This document shows positions 353 through 34,578 of a stretch of 34,760 nt of DNA, one piece after another. Made by a program: the position numbers and the translations under genes. A model generated the notes under the pieces. The model worked only from the letters and a program-made list of their open reading frames with translations. It was not told the origin of the DNA and ran no database searches. The stretch covers positions 1-34,760 of IMG/VR virus record IMGVR_UViG_3300046328_000417, one strand, 5' to 3'. The stretch's first letter is position 1. Each line of letters begins with the position of its first letter. The stretch is from a virus.

Positions 353-459
353 AATTTATTTCCCTTTAGTGTCATAAGTGAGCGAATGGTTAAGTCTGTT
401 ATCGTCTGCGCCGCTGCCAATCGCTTGCGGCATATCCATATTTCTAAATCAAAGCTCAT
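349..459 (-). CDS. small hypothetical protein (36 aa)
   Basis: A 36-residue frame starts MSFDLEIWICRKRLAAAQ and is predicted to be a short amphipathic helix. Its ATG overlaps the stop of the preceding gene (ATGA at 459-456), and its own TGA overlaps the next ATG at 352. A purine-rich site (GAGGAGGA) lies a few bases upstream of the start, inside the preceding gene. The double start/stop overlaps and good ribosome-binding site are the evidence for translation. No family is recognised. Confidence 0.55.
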   Translation of the reverse strand: MSFDLEIWICRKRLAAAQTITDLTIRSLMTLKGNKL

Positions 460-581
460 TGTGCGTCCTCCTCTTGATCGTCTTCAATATCAAATGTTGC
501 CAGCTTTGCCACAATCTCAGCAAGCGCGTGTTTGCATGAGCGGTCATTGAATGCGTATGGGCTTGGCTTTCTGTTTTTCAT
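456..581 (-). CDS. small hypothetical protein (41 aa)
   Basis: This is the first gene of the leftward mini-operon. The frame begins MKNRKPSPYAFNDRSCKHAL and has an acidic C-terminus (DIEDDQEEDAQ). The start is preceded by AAGAAAGGGAATAAGACG, a good ribosome-binding site at normal spacing. A promoter candidate at 671-643 points toward it. No family is recognised, and with so short a protein the case rests on context. Confidence 0.55.
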   Translation of the reverse strand: MKNRKPSPYAFNDRSCKHALAEIVAKLATFDIEDDQEEDAQ

Positions 582-642
582 CGTCTTATTCCCTTTCTTA
601 CTTCGAGAAACAATCTTGCTCGCTTCCCCTCTCTATAAAACC

Positions 643-671
643 ATCATCTCACACATTTAAAACAATGTCAA
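643..671 (-). promoter_or_regulatory. promoter candidate for leftward genes
   Basis: On the minus strand there is a perfect -35 box TTGACA (671-666), a 17-base spacer, and GATGAT (648-643) as -10 with a TGTG stretch just before it. Transcription would start near 636 and reach the first small gene at 581. The -35 lies inside one of the recurring TGTCAACA words, so a protein binding that word could control the promoter. The -10 matches the consensus at only four of six positions. Confidence 0.45.
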
Positions 672-905
672 CAAAAAAATATATTTTTATTTTATATTTT
701 ATTCAGACCGGTGAAATTATCTATATTTATTATTATACACGATTAAAATATACTTTTCAGTATTATGCAAACGAGGTAACAAAATCGCAAAACTTTTGTT
801 GACATCCAAAACCACGGTCACAGCCAAGGTGACGAGGTAACGGATTTTCAGAAAATACCCCCCCCCCCAACTATATCAGTATCATTAGGGGTTAAGGCAT
901 AGTTT

Positions 906-935
906 TTGTTACCTATATATATATATTTATATAAT
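906..935 (+). promoter_or_regulatory. promoter candidate for late operon
   Basis: TTGTTA (906-911) and a consensus TATAAT (930-935) are separated by 18 bases, which would start a transcript near 942. The -35 overlaps a partial AGGTAAC word on the opposite strand (914-908), and the leader would run through the tandem repeats before the small terminase gene. In such AT-rich DNA, TATAAT occurs easily by chance, so this is tentative. Confidence 0.35.
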
Positions 936-970
936 AATATAATAATAATAAGGGGTTACGTGTTTTTGTT

Positions 971-1013
971 GAGGTAACAAGATGTCAACAAACGAGGTAA
1001 CAAAGTGTCAACA
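971..1013 (+). repeat. tandem 20-bp repeat, 23-bp period
   Basis: Two copies of GAGGTAACAA-nn-TGTCAACA lie at 971-990 and 994-1013, differing only at the two central bases. Each unit joins the two words that recur singly elsewhere in this control region. A period of 23 bases is about two helical turns, so bound proteins would sit on roughly the same face of the DNA. Confidence 0.75.
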
Positions 1014-1108
1014 GAATGGCGATTTTCCAAAAATCCGTTACCTCGTAATTTTATTGCGCGTTTCGGCGGGTGTTGCGTGTTTTGCGGCGGTTGTGTTATG
1101 GTGATTGT

Positions 1109-1624: not shown

Positions 1625-3142
1625 ATGGAAATTAACTGGAAAAGCCCTGATTACGATGCGGTGTATGCTGAGAGGCGGGATCGTTTGATGCGGTTGCGCC
1701 AGGATCCTGCATTGCTTGCGGGGTTGCGGGAATATTACAAGGATCGGCCTGCGGATTTTGTGAACGACTGGGGGTGTACGGTTGATCCTAGGAATGCGGA
1801 GTTGGGGAGGAGTGCTGTAGTTCCGTTTTTGTTATTTCCAAAGCAGCGGGAGTTTATTGACTGGCTGTATGACCGGTGGCGCGGGAGGGAGAAGGGCTTG
1901 GTGTATAAGAGCCGCGATATGGGTATTAGTTGGTGTTGTGTGGCGTTTGGGGTGTGGATGTGGTTATTCCATGAGGGGAGTGTGGTTGGGTATGGGAGCC
2001 GCAAGGAGGAGTATGTTGACGAGCTGGGGGACCCGAAAAGTTTGTTCTGGAAGGTGCGTGAGTTTGTGAAGATGCTGCCTGCTGAGTTTAGGCCTGAGCA
2101 GTGGACGGCGCCATTCATGAAGGTGTTGAATGGTGATAATGGGAGTGTGATTGTGGGCGAGGCTGGGAATAGCATTGGCCGTGGCAACAGGACGTCGATT
2201 TATTTTGTGGATGAGAGCGCTCACCTGCCGAATCAGGAGATGGTGGATGCGGCGTTGAGTGCGACGACGAATTGCCGTATTGACGTGAGTACGCCGCTGA
2301 GTGCTGGCGGTTTGTTTGAGCGGAAGGTGATGGCGGGGAGGATACCGCTGTTTACGTTTCCATGGAAGGACGACCCGAGGAAGGATGAGGCGTGGTATAA
2401 GCGCCAGTGCGAGGAGTTAGATCCGGTTGTGGTGGCGCAGGAGATTGACCTGAACCCGATGGCGAGTATTAGCAACGTGCTGCTGGATGGTCACGCGGTT
2501 ACTGGGGCGATGAATGGGCTGGTTTTGCCGCCAGAAGGATCAGGGCCGTGGATGATAGGGGTTGATGCCGCGCACGAGGGGAATGACGCCACGGTAATAC
2601 ACAGCAGGCGGGGGCGGTTAAATTTAGAGCAGATCGTGCTGAAGGGTCGGATAACGGGCGATGTTATAGCGGCGGCGGTTGAGCACCACTGCGATAAGCT
2701 GGTCTCCATGAAGGGAGAGATCGGGCAGATCGTTATCGAGTTAGATGGCCCAGGAACGAGCGTGTACGATTTCCTGAAGTTGGGTCGGTATAAGAGCGCG
2801 GTGAGGGGGATACACACGGGGGCGAGGCAGAAGGATGATAAGCACTACAACCTGCGAGCGTTGTTGTGGATGCGGGCGAAAGAGTATTTCGAGGAAGGCG
2901 GGGTTCACCTGCCGGATAATTTTGAGTTAAGGCAGCAGCTCTGTTCGATGCTGTATAATTTCAAGGACGGAATGTACCTGATGATGAGCAAGAAAGAGTA
3001 TAAAAAATTGTTCAAGAGATCGCCAGATAATGCGGATGCATTTGTGTTGACATTCAATCCGTATATGCCTAAAATGTATACGCGGGATAATGATCCCTTC
3101 AGATCGTATGAGAACAGTAAAGTAGGATGGATGGGGTATTAA
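1625..3142 (+). CDS. terL: terminase large subunit (ATPase/nuclease)
   Basis: The 505-residue motor protein cuts concatemeric phage DNA and pumps it through the portal. The ATPase half shows a Walker A variant KSRDMGIS (95-102) and a Walker B strand IYFVDE (192-197) with the catalytic Glu197. The nuclease half shows acidic residues in GVDAAHEGND (Asp314), IELDGPG (Asp374) and SPDNADAF (Asp468, Asp471), the RNase H-like arrangement of large terminases. Length is normal for the family. AGGA sits nine bases before the ATG. Its DNA is noticeably richer in G and in GGG/GTG codons than the genes that follow, which suggests a different ancestry for this segment. Confidence 0.95.
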   Translation: MEINWKSPDYDAVYAERRDRLMRLRQDPALLAGLREYYKDRPADFVNDWGCTVDPRNAELGRSAVVPFLLFPKQREFIDWLYDRWRGREKGLVYKSRDMGISWCCVAFGVWMWLFHEGSVVGYGSRKEEYVDELGDPKSLFWKVREFVKMLPAEFRPEQWTAPFMKVLNGDNGSVIVGEAGNSIGRGNRTSIYFVDESAHLPNQEMVDAALSATTNCRIDVSTPLSAGGLFERKVMAGRIPLFTFPWKDDPRKDEAWYKRQCEELDPVVVAQEIDLNPMASISNVLLDGHAVTGAMNGLVLPPEGSGPWMIGVDAAHEGNDATVIHSRRGRLNLEQIVLKGRITGDVIAAAVEHHCDKLVSMKGEIGQIVIELDGPGTSVYDFLKLGRYKSAVRGIHTGARQKDDKHYNLRALLWMRAKEYFEEGGVHLPDNFELRQQLCSMLYNFKDGMYLMMSKKEYKKLFKRSPDNADAFVLTFNPYMPKMYTRDNDPFRSYENSKVGWMGY

Positions 3143-26863: not shown

Positions 26864-27634
26864 TTAAATCAGTTTCTCTTGAATTATTTTTTGAGGAGGC
26901 TCTACAAAGAAATCCGGCTGTTCATAGGCCTCACGTATGCGCTTGCAAGCAATGTCAAAATAGCCCTCGTCCAGCTCAATGCCTATGAATTTGCGACCTA
27001 GCTTTACGCAAGCAACGCCTGTGGTTCCGCTACCCATAAATGGATCGAGAATTGTCTCCTTGTGATTCGTAAAGTCTTTGAGTATCTCAGCCATCAATTT
27101 AACGGGCTTTTCAGTTGGGTGTCCTCCATAACGCTGGTCGCCTTTGTTACAGTAATAAACGCCATGCTTTCCACCACCATTCCATTTGCTATGACCAGAA
27201 CTAGCCCACGCATTCACAAAGCATTCGTACCCAATACCAGGGCATTGCCCATTAAATTGAGGCATTCCGTCAGGCTTTATCCATAGACAGGCTCTTTTAT
27301 ACTTCATTTCAGATTCATTTATTTCTAATTCCCATGGCTTCACACCTTCAATAATACAAAACCCAATAAACCATCCATTAGATATTTTTTTAACCTCAGC
27401 ACAAAAAGGTTTTCTAATATCGTCTACGGCCTCAAAATTCCAAGCAGTAAACGGATTTCTTTTGTCTTTCAACTGGCGGCCAGTTGAAAGACGCTTGTTA
27501 TTCTCGTGCACTAATGCCTCATAGGGCGGATCGCAAATGACGTGGTCTACAGAATCAAGCGTAGGCATCACCTCAAGACAATCGCCCAAATAAAGCGTGC
27601 AATCGCCAATTATTTCTTTTCGCTTGTATGGCAT
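26864..27634 (-). CDS. beta-class DNA methyltransferase (N6-A or N4-C)
   Basis: The 256-residue enzyme transfers methyl groups from S-adenosylmethionine to DNA bases. Motif IV is DPPY (residues 35-38), the conserved HPTEKP is at 172-177, and motif I is DPFMGSGTTG (197-206). The order IV before I marks the beta class of amino-methyltransferases. No restriction nuclease gene is adjacent, so it is an orphan phage enzyme, likely for protection against host restriction or for regulation. ATG 27634 has GAGGAGG upstream. A perfect 29-bp palindrome lies within codons about 48-57, between motif IV and the presumed recognition region. Confidence 0.9.
   Translation of the reverse strand: MPYKRKEIIGDCTLYLGDCLEVMPTLDSVDHVICDPPYEALVHENNKRLSTGRQLKDKRNPFTAWNFEAVDDIRKPFCAEVKKISNGWFIGFCIIEGVKPWELEINESEMKYKRACLWIKPDGMPQFNGQCPGIGYECFVNAWASSGHSKWNGGGKHGVYYCNKGDQRYGGHPTEKPVKLMAEILKDFTNHKETILDPFMGSGTTGVACVKLGRKFIGIELDEGYFDIACKRIREAYEQPDFFVEPPQKIIQEKLI
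27464..27492. repeat. perfect 29-bp palindrome inside methyltransferase gene
   Basis: The arms 27464-27477 (beginning GTCTTTCAAC) and 27479-27492 are exact reverse complements around a single central G at 27478. The centre reads GGCGGCC. The mRNA could form a long hairpin early in the methyltransferase message, and the DNA could be a two-fold symmetric binding site. Confidence 0.9.
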
Positions 27635-27705: not shown

Positions 27706-27901
27706 TTGCCGCCCCTATTTCATTAATTGCTTTGTCCAAAAACTCACGCGCACCATCAAGTCCATATCTTTTCTGCAAACCTTCGATATCAAAGCGAGCA
27801 ATTGGAATATCATTGTAGATTAGCAATCTAGGCGTGTTTTCGTAAGAACCATCCATAATAATTTCAAACGCGCAAATTTTCTTTTCTTGTTTTGAAGTCA
27901 C
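27692..27901 (-). CDS. hypothetical protein (69 aa)
   Basis: The frame starts with GTG that overlaps the stop of the HTH gene (GTGA). It reads MTSKQEKKICAFEIIMDGSY and continues with RLLIYNDIPIARFDIE, an alpha/beta pattern, ending in a helix. No family recognised. It lies between the HTH regulator and the methyltransferase. Confidence 0.6.
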   Translation of the reverse strand: MTSKQEKKICAFEIIMDGSYENTPRLLIYNDIPIARFDIEGLQKRYGLDGAREFLDKAINEIGAANERT

Positions 27902-28089
27902 AATTGCGCCTCCAGATCCTCAAGCGCAGAGATAATACCCTGCATTTTAAGCGGTGGGATTTTCTTTACACCGTTCTCCCAGTTATAAAGCGTGCCTTCT
28001 GTAACGCCCAAAGCTGCCGCAACCTTACGCCTAGTTAAGGCCATTCGCTTACGTGCTGCCATTAATTCTTCACTAGATAGGTAACTCAT
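27898..28089 (-). CDS. XRE-family helix-turn-helix regulator
   Basis: The 63-residue product has a typical XRE/Cro-type helix-turn-helix at about residues 18-38 (RRKVAAALGVTEGTLYNWEN). It is one DNA-binding domain with no dimerisation or ligand domain. ATG 28089 is chosen since GAGG precedes it; four additional residues are possible upstream. It could bind the repeat words of the 582-1108 region or local promoters, which is untested. A candidate for the only sequence-specific regulator in the window. Confidence 0.75.
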   Translation of the reverse strand: MSYLSSEELMAARKRMALTRRKVAAALGVTEGTLYNWENGVKKIPPLKMQGIISALEDLEAQL

Positions 28090-28687
28090 CGTTTTCCTCA
28101 CTTTCTTTTGCTAATTTTGATAGTTCTTTGTTCATTGATTTTACGGCCTCAATCTCATCAGGCTCAAGCGCATTACGCCACGCCAAATACGACTCCACAC
28201 CACCAAGCGCAGATTCCTTGCCAGCTTCGTATAGAGCGTCTGTGTCAAGCAAGGTTTCTGGCTCTATGGACGCCACAGGCTTTGTATCCGTAGCTAAAGG
28301 CAGCACAACGTACTTCTCAACCTTGTGGCGGCTAACACGAACGGGCAATACCACCTGCTTACCGCCAGCCATATGGCTCATGTGCGTAAGGCGTATACCG
28401 CCAACCTCTGCGCCCCCCCATGTTACTTTGGGGTCACACACCAAAGTTATCGAGCGACCCTTAAGATCGACCTTACTACCCCAAACTTGGGCAATCACAC
28501 GGCGCATGGTTTTGCACGGCTTCCAAGGTTTATTACCCCCGCCCTCATAAAAAATATGAATAGGCTGGTCCGGATCTTGGAGTTTCTTAGCGTCGGCAAT
28601 CTTGATTGTTATGCTTCCTGCAATATCAGACGCATTAAGCTGGTCTGATTTTGCAATAATAGTATCTGAAAAATCTATAATACTCAT
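28073..28687 (-). CDS. recombination-module protein, ssDNA-binding/annealing candidate
   Basis: The 204-residue product begins MSIIDFSDTIIAKSDQLNAS. Its centre (PWKPCKTMRRVIAQVWGSK, then GRSITLVCDPKVTWGGAEVG, then GIRLTHMSHM) is a beta-rich, basic region I know from phage genes located next to lambda-exonuclease homologues. By analogy with lambda exo/bet and T7-like exonuclease/ssDNA-binding pairs, it may bind single-stranded DNA; there is no proof in the sequence. GGGG precedes ATG 28687. It overlaps the HTH gene by 17 bases. Confidence 0.6.
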   Translation of the reverse strand: MSIIDFSDTIIAKSDQLNASDIAGSITIKIADAKKLQDPDQPIHIFYEGGGNKPWKPCKTMRRVIAQVWGSKVDLKGRSITLVCDPKVTWGGAEVGGIRLTHMSHMAGGKQVVLPVRVSRHKVEKYVVLPLATDTKPVASIEPETLLDTDALYEAGKESALGGVESYLAWRNALEPDEIEAVKSMNKELSKLAKESEENDELPI

Positions 28688-30068: not shown

Positions 30069-30480
30069 TGTTTTTCTTTTTACCTCTGTTTTTATAAATT
30101 TTAGCGGAGGAAATATTTCGACACGTTCTGCAATACCTATGCCCTTTTTTTGATATATAGGCACCTTCAAGCGAATGTCCTTGTTTGCAATGTGTTTTTT
30201 GTTTGTTGGATTCAGAAGTGATACTGCCCGCCGTTATCAAAACTATATGATCTGGGCAAACGCATAATTTGTTATTGCACGACATAGTCATTTGGATATT
30301 CATGTCAAAAACCTCGCCGTAATAAATACCAAATAAATACTTCTTGATATTTGTAGGTTTTTTTCCAACTCGCAAACGAGGAGCGCCCCAACTATAAAGA
30401 GCACCCGTCCAATTCCAGCACCCTGTTTCACCGTCAATCTGTACTTTTGACATTATCAATTCTTTAATTTCTTCACTCAT
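30055..30480 (-). CDS. HNH-like zinc protein, possibly catalytically dead
   Basis: The 141-residue product matches phage HNH_3-type proteins: ETGCWNWTGALYSWGAPRLR, then FGIYYGE, then MSCNNKLCVCPDHIVLIT, followed by a second zinc-like cluster (HCKQGHSLEGAY ... RYCRTCRN). In active members the finger begins H.C and contains NP.H. Here the first His is replaced by Met and the Asn by Cys, so catalysis is doubtful while metal binding may persist. Its ATGA overlap with the helicase gene makes it part of the operon rather than a free-standing homing gene. ATG 30480 is used. Confidence 0.72.
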   Translation of the reverse strand: MSEEIKELIMSKVQIDGETGCWNWTGALYSWGAPRLRVGKKPTNIKKYLFGIYYGEVFDMNIQMTMSCNNKLCVCPDHIVLITAGSITSESNKQKTHCKQGHSLEGAYISKKGHRYCRTCRNISSAKIYKNRGKKKNNDTL

Positions 30481-31844
30481 GCCTTTATCCCCTTAACTCT
30501 TGCCATTTGATGCACCCAGCCAGCAGCATAACCCCGCTCTTTTGCTATACGCTGCAAATCCGCCAGCGTCCGTGCCTGCCCTTGTTCCTGCCGCTTGGTT
30601 TTAGCCAGCCTTTCCTCTGCCTGCTGTTCTGCCTTGAGCATCTCCGGTGTGACAACAACGAGCCGCCCGTCAACTTCTTTTATTTTCTTACCATCCACCA
30701 CAAACCGCGCGTTGCAATAAGGGCAGTGCGTGCTTCCAATCTTTGACGGCTTATAGCAGGATTTGCACGTTATCAGGCTCATCGTGCGCTCACGGTATTC
30801 AACGTCACGTTTCCGCACATCTCCACTGTCCAAAACCCACTCTCTGTCCGCGCAGGGCAGGCCATGGTTTTCGTGGTAGCTATTGCCCGCCAAATCGATG
30901 ATTACAGCGTGTCCACCATCATCATAGCGTAATGCCCTACCGTTCTTCTGCAACTGCGTTGTGAGACTTCCTGTGGGCTGCAAATCAAGCATACAACGGA
31001 CGTTTACCTTGCGCCCTATCTGGCTGGCCAAATCAAATCCCATCTGGCACAGATATACATTAAAAATAATCTTTATATCTCCATCGGCAAACGCGCTTAT
31101 CAGCTTACGTCGCGTATCCTTTGGCGTGTCCGACTCAATGAACGCTGCGGGTATACCGTACTTATTAAACAACGCCTCCATAGCATACCCATGCGCCTTA
31201 TCGCGGCAGAACCCTATGGTTAGCCTGCCTCCAGCGTGCTTCTCCCATTCGTCCACCGGATCGCCGCCAAGACAACCCTTTGGCATTTTAACGCTAGGCT
31301 GCACAAGCGCATATTCAGATAAGAATTTGTTATCAATGAGCCAGCGTATAGACTGCCCCTGAACCATGTCATCAAACCAGTCTCCCATACCGTAGTTATT
31401 CTGCATGGCTGGTGTAGCGGACAACCCAACAACAAACCTGTTTTTCTCACGGCAGTCTTTTATCACGCGGTCAATCAGGTCGGCCCCCCAGTGTACCTCA
31501 TCAAGGAAGACGACATCAGGGTTAATGGCGTCTAGCCGCTTGACCAACGTATGCAGGCTGCATATGTGGGTTTTCGCCGCAGGGTTTAAGCGCATCTCTT
31601 GAGCAACAAAGCTATGCCTAATGCCGAAATCATTAAACGTGTTACCCATCTGTGTAATCAGGTCAATGCGCGGCACGACAAAAGAAGCCTTGCGTCCCTT
31701 CGCCTGACTGGCTGCTATCATGTAACTTGCAAGAACGGATTTACCCCCTCCAGTGGGAAGCTGCATCAACACGTTGCGGTTGCTTTTAAGCGAGTCCTTA
31801 AGCCGCTGAACTTGGTCAATCTGGTGGTCATATAGATTAATCAA
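30477..31844 (-). CDS. SF2 DEAD/DEAH-type helicase
   Basis: The 455-residue enzyme has Walker A PTGGGKS (30-36), DEVH (115-118), SAT (142-144) and motif VI QLQKNGRALR (297-306), plus four cysteines (360, 363, 374, 377) as a C-terminal zinc finger and an Arg/Lys/Gln-rich tail. It unwinds or translocates on nucleic acid in replication or recombination (UvsW/RecQ-like family by architecture, not closely assigned). It overlaps the primase gene by eight bases and is followed by the HNH-like gene. Confidence 0.92.
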   Translation of the reverse strand: MINLYDHQIDQVQRLKDSLKSNRNVLMQLPTGGGKSVLASYMIAASQAKGRKASFVVPRIDLITQMGNTFNDFGIRHSFVAQEMRLNPAAKTHICSLHTLVKRLDAINPDVVFLDEVHWGADLIDRVIKDCREKNRFVVGLSATPAMQNNYGMGDWFDDMVQGQSIRWLIDNKFLSEYALVQPSVKMPKGCLGGDPVDEWEKHAGGRLTIGFCRDKAHGYAMEALFNKYGIPAAFIESDTPKDTRRKLISAFADGDIKIIFNVYLCQMGFDLASQIGRKVNVRCMLDLQPTGSLTTQLQKNGRALRYDDGGHAVIIDLAGNSYHENHGLPCADREWVLDSGDVRKRDVEYRERTMSLITCKSCYKPSKIGSTHCPYCNARFVVDGKKIKEVDGRLVVVTPEMLKAEQQAEERLAKTKRQEQGQARTLADLQRIAKERGYAAGWVHQMARVKGIKA

Positions 31845-34578
31845 AACTAATCTCCTCTTCGTCTACAAACAAATCCTCAGAATTATTGATCTGTATTTTT
31901 TCTTCTACAAAATATTTAATAGGAAGCGAAACAGCTCGCTGTTTGTCCCCTGGCGCAAAGTACATTGAAGACGGTGTTTTCTCTGCTCCTGGCAAATTAG
32001 CAAACTGTTTGCCCCAGCCACCCTCCCATACAGTCCCGCGCATTAGGGCAGATAAATTTTTATTCGTGTTTCCGATGTAAACCCTGCCGTTTTCAACCCT
32101 GATAGAATATCCGTGCAAATAATTTTTTGCCGCTGATTTTTCTATGGTATGCATATGCCCAGAGGCGCAGGCAATTAGCTCGCCAATACTTAAATCACGG
32201 GATATTAATTGTATGCGAACCATGCTGGTGGCCATGTGGCGCAAAACGCGCTCTTGCTCTGTTTCCTGTTCAATAGCGGTGTGGTCATTCCATTCGTGCA
32301 AGTAAACAAGGTTTTTCGCCTCGTCTGGTTCAATTAAGCCGCCCTGTTTCATAACCCAGTATCCAGAAAGCAAAACAGATATTTGATCCGCAGCACGCGG
32401 GTCTTTAGTTTTCTCACGCGCAAACGCATATATCGTTTCAAAGTTTTTCTTAATATTCGGGTATTCTTCTATAAGCGTTGCCACTAATCGGGCTGAGAAA
32501 TTTTCAGTCAAAGTTTCCTCGACAATAGCCTGCAACTCTTTAAATTTTTGGTGTGCGTTGGCAGCTATATTTTTCTTTAGATTAAGCCTTGTGATCCGCG
32601 TTTCATCCGCAAAGTTTGTGATCGGCACGTTAATAGAAGCAAAGCAAAACATACTCTGTGCCTTAAATGAGCGTTGCCCGTACTTTGAGATAACGCCGCC
32701 CCGCGATGCTAACCGCGCAAGCTCGAGAATTGCCGGCATATTACCGCTATCGTTTGCTTTCTTTTCCGCCTCGTCAAAAATAACGGGCTGGACGTTGTAC
32801 CCCATGGCCTCCCTGATCTTTGGCTCTGTTGAGCTTCCGTCAAAATTTAAGGACACACCAGACAGAGCAAGCCTTATCCACTCAACGATTGTGGACTTGC
32901 CGGAACGTGCTTCACCAGTGATCCATATATGAGGACGCCACGGGAAGGCGGCGCACATTGGCGCAGAGGCAATCCAGCCGGCAAGAAGGATTCCAGAAAG
33001 CGCGTTTTCCCAAGTCAACAAAGTAAAAATCTTTAAAAACCGATTGCGGGCAGTAATATCAAGCGGCTCTGCCGGAAGGGGCATTTTGGGAGAGGAAACG
33101 TAAACATATTTTGTCTTTATGTTCTGCCATTGCTTCTCCTCACCATTCACAAATAACTTCTGCCCGTTGTTGTATATCAACCTGCCTTGGCTATCAGGCC
33201 ATAGGCCAGAGCCGCGAACACTATCCGACTCATAAAAAACACCACGCTTGTGGGCTTCTGTCATAAATTTATCGGCTATTAATGTGGGGATCTGGTTCCT
33301 TGGCACATGGCTAAATAATGATTCAAGGCTTGTGAGGCCGGCAAGCTGCAACAAATTATTTATTGAGTGGCTGGACGCAGTAAACGAAACGATCTGGCGT
33401 TGCATAAACGGGATATAAAAATATTTCCCCTCATTGAACCCAAGAATTTTAAACGGCAAACCAAAGTCGCCCATCAAGGTAAACTCGTTTTCATAGGCCT
33501 CTAATGGTGCAGCTTGCCTTTCGTCTTTGTCTACTGGGATTGGCTGCTTTTCAAATAAATTCTTAAATATAGCACTTAGTCGCGCAAGCCCATATATGGA
33601 GTGATAATCATTCCAATCTGTTGGCTTGCTCTTTAAATCAGCTGCGTCAAATTCAGGCCATATGACGCGCCCCTTTACCTTCATCGCTGCAGTTTGTGCC
33701 TTGTCTATACCGACGTTGTATAAATAACCTTTCTCTCGCCATTCAAACCAACGCTGGTCATCACCAGAAACATCATCCCTATCAACGTCCTGCGCCTCAA
33801 CCGGCTTAGGGTTTTTAAAAGTAAAAATGTCGCTGTCAGCGGCAATGATGATATCAGCGTCAGGCCGCTTCGCTCTATACGCTTGAGCGACTGCAGATAG
33901 GTTGCCCGCATTAAACGCCACAACAACAGGTTTACCCGTTGCTTCGCGAATGCTTGCACCAGTTGCGAACCCTTCGCAGATAAATATGACGCTAGGATCA
34001 TCGCCCTTATCAGCAATCGGATAAAACCCACCCTCTGTTTTTCCCCCGTACATAAAACGCTTATCCTTGCCCGTTTTATCTATGCGCTGAAGGCTTGTGA
34101 TCTTTCCGGCTATGTCGCATACCTTTAAAATCAGAAGCCCCTCTGTGTTGATCCTCGCCCCGTGTGGCTGTACTCCCTTTTTGTTAAGGTATGGGTGTTC
34201 GATTGCTGGCTGCGCAGCGTTCCACTCTACTTTTGCCTCTGCCGCGGCCTTGGCGTAATCCTCGGCCTGTTTCTTATCAAACGCAGCTTTGTCCGCAGCA
34301 CGGCGTTTCATGCGCTCGGCTTTTTGTTCAGGCGTTTCTTTTTCTGCGGCCTCTGGATACCACGTAAATATATCGCTGTCCTTGTAGCTTCTATACTGCC
34401 CAACTGCGCTGTCAAGATCGATCGTCAAGCGATAGCCACAAGATTTCTTACCACCTTTATCACCAATCGTTTGGTATGGCTTCCAAGATCCGCCTGTATG
34501 CTGTATCTCTCTTGAGTTAACAGCTGGCAATCCCGCAGCATCAAGCGCGGCCAAAAATTGCGATAAATAATCAGACAT
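31837..34578 (-). CDS. TOPRIM primase-helicase fusion
   Basis: The 913-residue protein starts replication by making primers and unwinding DNA. An N-terminal region (1-80) and a charged linker precede a TOPRIM domain with FICEGFATGAS (Glu202) and IAADSD (Asp248, Asp250). The C-terminal half has Walker A GEARSGKST (555-563) and Walker B VIFDEAE (599-605). The layout resembles the primase-helicases of P4-like and virulent phages. The start ATG 34578 overlaps the stop of the upstream partial gene (TGA at 34573-34571). No DNA polymerase is present, so host polymerase is likely used. Confidence 0.9.
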   Translation of the reverse strand: MSDYLSQFLAALDAAGLPAVNSREIQHTGGSWKPYQTIGDKGGKKSCGYRLTIDLDSAVGQYRSYKDSDIFTWYPEAAEKETPEQKAERMKRRAADKAAFDKKQAEDYAKAAAEAKVEWNAAQPAIEHPYLNKKGVQPHGARINTEGLLILKVCDIAGKITSLQRIDKTGKDKRFMYGGKTEGGFYPIADKGDDPSVIFICEGFATGASIREATGKPVVVAFNAGNLSAVAQAYRAKRPDADIIIAADSDIFTFKNPKPVEAQDVDRDDVSGDDQRWFEWREKGYLYNVGIDKAQTAAMKVKGRVIWPEFDAADLKSKPTDWNDYHSIYGLARLSAIFKNLFEKQPIPVDKDERQAAPLEAYENEFTLMGDFGLPFKILGFNEGKYFYIPFMQRQIVSFTASSHSINNLLQLAGLTSLESLFSHVPRNQIPTLIADKFMTEAHKRGVFYESDSVRGSGLWPDSQGRLIYNNGQKLFVNGEEKQWQNIKTKYVYVSSPKMPLPAEPLDITARNRFLKIFTLLTWENALSGILLAGWIASAPMCAAFPWRPHIWITGEARSGKSTIVEWIRLALSGVSLNFDGSSTEPKIREAMGYNVQPVIFDEAEKKANDSGNMPAILELARLASRGGVISKYGQRSFKAQSMFCFASINVPITNFADETRITRLNLKKNIAANAHQKFKELQAIVEETLTENFSARLVATLIEEYPNIKKNFETIYAFAREKTKDPRAADQISVLLSGYWVMKQGGLIEPDEAKNLVYLHEWNDHTAIEQETEQERVLRHMATSMVRIQLISRDLSIGELIACASGHMHTIEKSAAKNYLHGYSIRVENGRVYIGNTNKNLSALMRGTVWEGGWGKQFANLPGAEKTPSSMYFAPGDKQRAVSLPIKYFVEEKIQINNSEDLFVDEEEISFD

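Follow-up and report, generated by a model that had tools for sequence, protein, structure and literature searches.

The origins of phage-inducible islands always consist of two sets of iterons flanking an AT-rich region (PMC6092414), and SaPI Rep recognises iterons located directly downstream of its own gene via its C-terminal domain (PMC7581432). For most phages, the origins are unknown. Here we describe an array of short repeated words in a phage genome (the window, i.e. the whole 34,760-bp stretch that was analysed), which we propose, with a probability of about 0.8, to be the replication origin for the phage's own 913-residue Toprim primase-helicase. We favour this proposal mainly because the predicted fold of the protein and the anatomy of the candidate origin correspond to those of staphylococcal and E. 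coli island elements. Origins of this kind are known in principle; what is new is the setting in a phage with structural genes and the breadth of the family.

The word array in the divergent intergenic region

The window is a whole IMG/VR record (IMGVR_UViG_3300046328_000417, positions 1-34,760). Junction frames reveal that the leftward genes at its left end continue across the join into the primase-helicase gene at its right end, and the map fits a genome that is circular or circularly permuted. The leftward set encodes the primase-helicase, a DNA helicase, an HNH endonuclease, a VRR nuclease, SSB, a YqaJ exonuclease, an HTH protein and a DNA methylase (26864-27634, minus strand; N6_N4_Mtase, Pfam E 3e-28), the last at the distal end of the early operon; the rightward set encodes terminase, portal, head proteins, a head connector, a DNA ejection protein and an endolysin. 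No integrase was found among the scanned proteins of the 34,760-bp record. The two sets are parted by a 527-bp gap (582-1108), which holds the entire array and is proposed to contain both the origin and the early promoter. The gap is truly intergenic, as the initial annotation had it in placing opposed gene sets on each side: the leftward ORF starts at 581 (456-581, minus strand; 41 residues, the first small ORF of the early operon, with no family match) and a good ATG of the first rightward gene lies at 1109, with the terminase large subunit (1625-3142, plus strand) as the second gene of that set.

Within the gap, GAGGTAAC is present five times (773, 834, 971 and 994 on the plus strand, 1037 on the minus strand) and TGTCAACA four times (666, 983 and 1006, plus; 797, minus), together with an extra half word, GTTACCT, at 908 (plus). 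These totals agree with the initial annotation, although its description of the TGTCAACA copies as two in each arrangement is to be corrected to a three-to-one split between the strands. It had also raised the possibility of equal density elsewhere, which does not apply: outside the gap, GAGGTAAC occurs once (15738) and TGTCAACA twice (3045 and 10836), and, judged from genome-wide densities, the gap has six copies of GTTACCT against 0.13 expected and four of TGTTGACA against 0.09 expected. Written as iterons, the A words are TTTTGTTACCTCG (773-780), ATCCGTTACCTCG (834-841), TCTTGTTACCTC (971-978) and CTTTGTTACCTCG (994-1001) on the minus strand and, on the plus strand, ATCCGTTACCTCG again (1037-1044) and the A-like TTTTGTTACCTATA (908-914), which is at the edge of the AT core; the B words are TTTTGTTGACAT (666-673), GTTTGTTGACATC (983-990) and TTCTGTTGACAC (1006-1013) on the minus strand and TTTTGTTGACATC (797-804) on the plus strand.

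The previously noted tandem 20-mer with its 23-bp period is real (971-990 and 994-1013, 90% identical), and corresponds to four iterons of the same direction (971-1013, minus strand) in the order B-A-B-A, with steps of 11, 12 and 11 bp; read from 1013 to 971, the minus strand is TGTTGAC-11-TGTTACC-12-TGTTGAC-11-TGTTACC, i.e. approximately one helical turn per step. Because both words alternate in this block, what had been termed a composite word is more simply read as two versions of one iteron, TGTTRMC, which the A and B words look like from their sequences.

The iterons form a left set (773-841) and a right set (971-1044) on either side of an AT-only core (914-951) made of (TA)6 and (TAA)4, the proposed melting site, with the half word at 908 adjoining. 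This core is among the two most AT-rich places in the genome, and a second very AT-rich stretch (674-733) is 87% AT; the 420-bp array as a whole is ~68% AT versus 54% for the genome. The 25-nt inverted repeat reported to surround AT-only DNA is likewise present, with its left arm at 832-856 (plus) and its right arm at 1022-1046 (minus), the arms being 92% complementary, enclosing the core and each including one ATCCGTTACCTCG iteron. A C9 run (859-868) follows the left iterons and precedes the AT core; runs of at least seven C or G are present in 6 of the 47 arrays considered in the survey below, and are rarer elsewhere. GGGGTTA words at 887-894 and 952-958, at similar distances either side of the edge of the AT core, belong to a repeat (D5; 873-894 versus 937-958, 77% alike), a pair that the iteron model leaves unexplained. 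Neisserial and pasteurellacean uptake words are absent.

Given that the gap is AT-rich and contains simple TA and TAA runs as well as the C9 run, its repeats might be a product of chance or of simple sequence, with no function. However, in none of 1000 dinucleotide-preserving shuffles of 600-1110 was the observed maximum copy number matched, for words of 7, 8, 9 or 10 nt; the comparative results given below complete the refutation of this reading, to which we assign a negligible probability.

The exact composite word is not conserved: it has 11 other matches in IMG/VR, all in contigs where no primase relative was detected. We therefore rejected it as a conserved unit, the matches probably being due to chance, and do not regard it as meaningful in itself. 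An extended A-word pattern matched four contigs, none with primase or terminase relatives or with arrays, and a composite B-A pattern gave no matches. A distant blastn comparison of the gap with phage records gave no match, and relatives found via the terminase (L014-L018, 56-58% identical) have neither the gap nor the words and are uninformative.

The primase-helicase and the arrays of its relatives

The proposed initiator (31837-34578, minus strand; 913 residues) has Toprim and P-loop AAA assignments from Pfam, which did not report DUF927, and is classed as a DNA primase in PHROG. Across the circular join, its gene follows the array at a distance of ~0.8-1.2 kb, and its stop codon overlaps the next gene (30477-31844), such that the array is not immediately 3' of the initiator gene. 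An AlphaFold2 model of the protein (pLDDT 88.6) has SCCmec Cch (5dgk) as its closest fold match (E 1.8e-10), with a sequence identity of 11% over the alignment, followed by the poxvirus D5/E5 helicases, SaPIBov1 Rep (8tch) and SaPI5 PriRep (7ola). The C-terminal domain folds confidently but, when searched alone, gave no significant match to solved structures.

Although a single-protein search with the primase found nothing, an alignment of six primases gave 134 loci; with five named phage loci added, primase ORFs were traced for 135 entries, which were reduced to 96 that are non-redundant and have enough downstream DNA; IMG/VR itself has at least 596 relatives. No word was preset; instead, we recorded for each locus how often its most frequent non-simple 7-mer occurs within the 500 bp at the primase stop, and every remaining 500-bp window of these loci contributed to the expectation. 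At least five copies of one 7-mer follow the primase stop in 29 of the 96 loci versus 1.97 expected, at least six in 22 versus 0.84, and at least eight in 14 versus 0.38. The winning words have a GTNAC core in 16 of 29 cases, versus 1.2% of random 7-mers, and are mostly variations on TTGTNAC (TGTTACC, TGTTACA, TGTTACG, TGTAACG, TGTCACG, TGTTCCG, TGTGAACC and TCTTACG). In the DNA available for each locus, the remaining 67 relatives have no array of at least five copies directly downstream of the primase, and some of them have one elsewhere; arrays farther from the primase were observed in L020, L029, L032, L037, L049, L068, L104, L108, L112 and L134.

The arrays share further features. Many relatives have two oppositely oriented clusters with steps of 8-12 bp that flank a gap of 130-165 bp, as exemplified by Bdellovibrio phage phi1422, in which eleven TGTTACC words form mirrored clusters in the 340 bp after the primase gene; the layout in the window is less regular than this mirrored one. 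Of 47 arrays, 15 contain a tract of (TA)5 or longer, against a single such tract in the remaining DNA of those loci, and 9 contain TAA/TAG tracts. The arrays were chosen by repeat count rather than by AT tracts, so a control with non-coding DNA matters: among 94 further non-coding gaps from these loci, none has a TA/TAA tract and none has at least five copies of a 7-mer. Both this control and the recurrence of the array type beside one gene family stand against the reading of the window's words as an artefact. The recurrence also lends good support to the suggestion in the initial annotation that the region has perhaps a role in replication, since arrays of this kind occur with the primase-helicase in many distant relatives.

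With respect to the words themselves, GGTAAC arrays were found in phi1422 (L022), Serratia phage MQ-4 (L020), L070, L074 and L112, and TTTTGTTGACAT, the B word of the window, is the array word in L068 (nine copies) and L044 (seven copies). Thus, both the A and the B word are used as array words within the family. By a Mantel test with hand-set iteron registers, iteron divergence did not follow that of the C-terminal domain (rho 0.064, p 0.23); with the same registers, the correlations with the helicase core (0.265) and with the N-terminal/Toprim part (0.191) are weak.

Several observations on individual relatives merit record. Cyanobium, Synechococcus, Vulcanococcus and related contigs (L114-L157) encode many primase-helicase relatives, often several per genome (L119-L121; L149/L150), with GTTACA, GTCACA or GTTAGA arrays right after the gene; these picocyanobacterial elements may be prophages or satellite elements. 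The most repeated array found is that of an uncultured Steroidobacter contig (L106, 17518-17990), which has fifteen words of a different type, that of AAGAAACC, 4.9 kb after its primase relative. Triplet runs are found beside (TA)n inside arrays, i.e. (CTA)6, (TAA)4 and (TAA)4TAG (L026, 305-350; window, 940-951; L019, 5744-5758), and resemble the DnaA-trios, which are triplet repeats at bacterial origins.

Proposed initiation, early transcription and alternative readings

One iteron coincides with a promoter element. A likely leftward early promoter, TTGACA-17-GATGAT with an extended TG (643-671, minus strand), is recognised purely by its match to consensus, and its -35 box is the TTGACA of the B iteron TTTTGTTGACAT. 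Thus, the proposal that -35 boxes lie inside the words is borne out for 671-666 (minus), but does not extend to the others, which lack a suitably spaced, plausible -10. On the rightward side, a consensus match, TTGTTA-18-TATAAT (906-935), falls within the AT core and shares bases with the half word at 908, and is weak evidence; overall, one word overlaps a plausible early promoter and none is clearly on a good rightward one.

The presence of divergent promoters, of a -35 box inside a B word, and of an HTH_3 protein (67 residues, 27898-28101) in the early operon could be taken to mean that the array is solely an operator array, at which a transcription regulator such as this HTH protein acts on divergent early and late promoters with no role in replication. 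The HTH gene, however, lies at the opposite end of the operon, ~7 kb from the words, and we found no support for the HTH protein (63-67 residues) as the ligand proposed in the initial annotation. Furthermore, TA/TAA melting tracts are not expected of operators, and the arrays of the relatives adjoin the primase gene, often within operons, rather than lying between divergent genes. We therefore consider a purely regulatory function to be improbable.

A second alternative, which we judge unlikely, albeit less so than the first, is that two systems overlap, with the A words being origin iterons and the B words being operators or promoter elements for another protein. The B words do contain TTGACA, and in the Microcystis phage Mwe-JY13 two inverted B words immediately precede the early operon, separated from the GGTAAT cluster. 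On the other hand, the B word is itself the array word in L068 and L044, the former with the family layout, the A and B words of the window alternate in one direction at 11-12 bp, and only one of the B words has a credible -10.

In the origin reading that we prefer, the A and B words would serve as two versions of one iteron. The primase-helicase would bind GTTACC/GTTGAC iterons to the left and right of the (TA)n(TAA)n core, open this core and assemble there as one helicase ring or two; with each strand primed by the same protein, replication would leave in both directions. Binding by the initiator would probably also dampen its own operon, because one iteron overlaps the -35 element of the early operon that encodes it; repression or timing of the early operon by the initiator is plausible. 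The cumulative GC skew reaches its lowest point within the array, at 877, and that of Mwe-JY13 likewise does so within its own array; given that the skew is confounded by the switch of gene strand at the same points, and that phi1422 and MQ-4 have no clear minimum at their arrays, it lends weak support to the origin assignment.

The array is best explained as an island-type iteron origin that has shifted to the divergent control region of a phage with its own structural genes and in which two versions of the word alternate. More broadly, and tentatively, at slightly less than even odds, we suggest that one origin type may be common to a large, as yet unmapped set of tailed phages and bacterial elements, among them proteobacterial and cyanobacterial ones, in which two clusters of a fast-drifting TTGTNAC word around TA/TAA tracts are read by a Toprim/Cch-like primase-helicase; in the lineage of the window, this origin would have moved onto the divergent early promoter with its two alternating iteron versions, so that one protein would time both replication and early transcription. 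A rule based on sequence alone, i.e. a TTGTNAC-like array plus TA/TAA tracts near a primase-helicase, points to candidate origins and initiators in dozens of phages and prophages that have not been studied, and the pairing of many initiators with many different words constitutes a data set on how this helicase family reads DNA.

Comparison with described systems

Compared with a lambda-type operator region, the window differs in that its HTH gene is ~7 kb from the words rather than beside them, and in that none of the words clearly overlaps a good rightward promoter. Much closer is Mwe-JY13 (PP438406), which has the same gene order, with divergent small genes leading into primase, helicase and YqaJ exonuclease. 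Its divergent early/terminase gap contains GGTAAT iterons, two TGTTGACA words, (TA)5 and (TAA)4, and also holds TGTCAACA; the GGTAAT words include CGGGTAATGAAATCGC (compare CGAGGTAACAAAATCGC in the window) and CGGGTAATGGATTTGC (compare CGAGGTAACGGATTTTC). A distant relative accordingly has versions of both words at the same locus, as the initial annotation would predict; it differs in that the primase is only 31% identical, the A words are GGTAAT rather than GGTAAC, and there is no alternating A/B block. In both Mwe-JY13 and the window the array is upstream of the early operon, unlike most positive relatives, where it follows the primase. We found no paper naming Mwe-JY13, and no description of arrays for this primase family, in the literature searched, which took in few subscription journals.

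The alpha protein of the satellite phage P4 is, by description, similar in uniting primase, helicase and origin recognition in one protein, and P4 has similar-looking iterons, its type I iteron being GGTGAACAG; the array word of one relative (L123) is TTGTGAACC. The 913-residue protein has Toprim and P-loop helicase regions, while its C-terminal domain matches no solved structure significantly. The two sites of P4, ori and crr, lie apart, whereas the window genome has only one clustered site, and the core of its words is GGTAAC/GTTGAC, not GGTGAACA. The SCCmec Cch (DUF927) helicase is the best structural match of the predicted protein, but is without a Toprim domain.

The closest overall correspondence is with the PICIs, including the SaPIs and the E. 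coli PICIs, so the earlier view that no described phage operator is known to have this composite word needs qualification, in that the words resemble a described class, that of the phage-inducible island origins. As in those elements, an initiator helicase of the Rep/Cch kind (by fold: 5dgk, 8tch and 7ola), sometimes fused to a primase, is encoded by the same element as two sets of short iterons around AT-rich DNA, and in most of the array-bearing relatives (at least 29 of 96) the array is directly 3' of the initiator gene. The window differs in four respects: it is a phage with its own terminase, portal, capsid, head, connector and endolysin genes, not a satellite; its initiator carries a Toprim primase; its candidate origin is at a divergent control region ~1 kb upstream of the initiator gene; and its iterons come in two alternating versions. 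Such an origin organisation has been stated in print to be confined to phage-inducible islands. If the arrays reported here are functional, complete phages share it, which would be in line with phages and their satellites exchanging replication modules.
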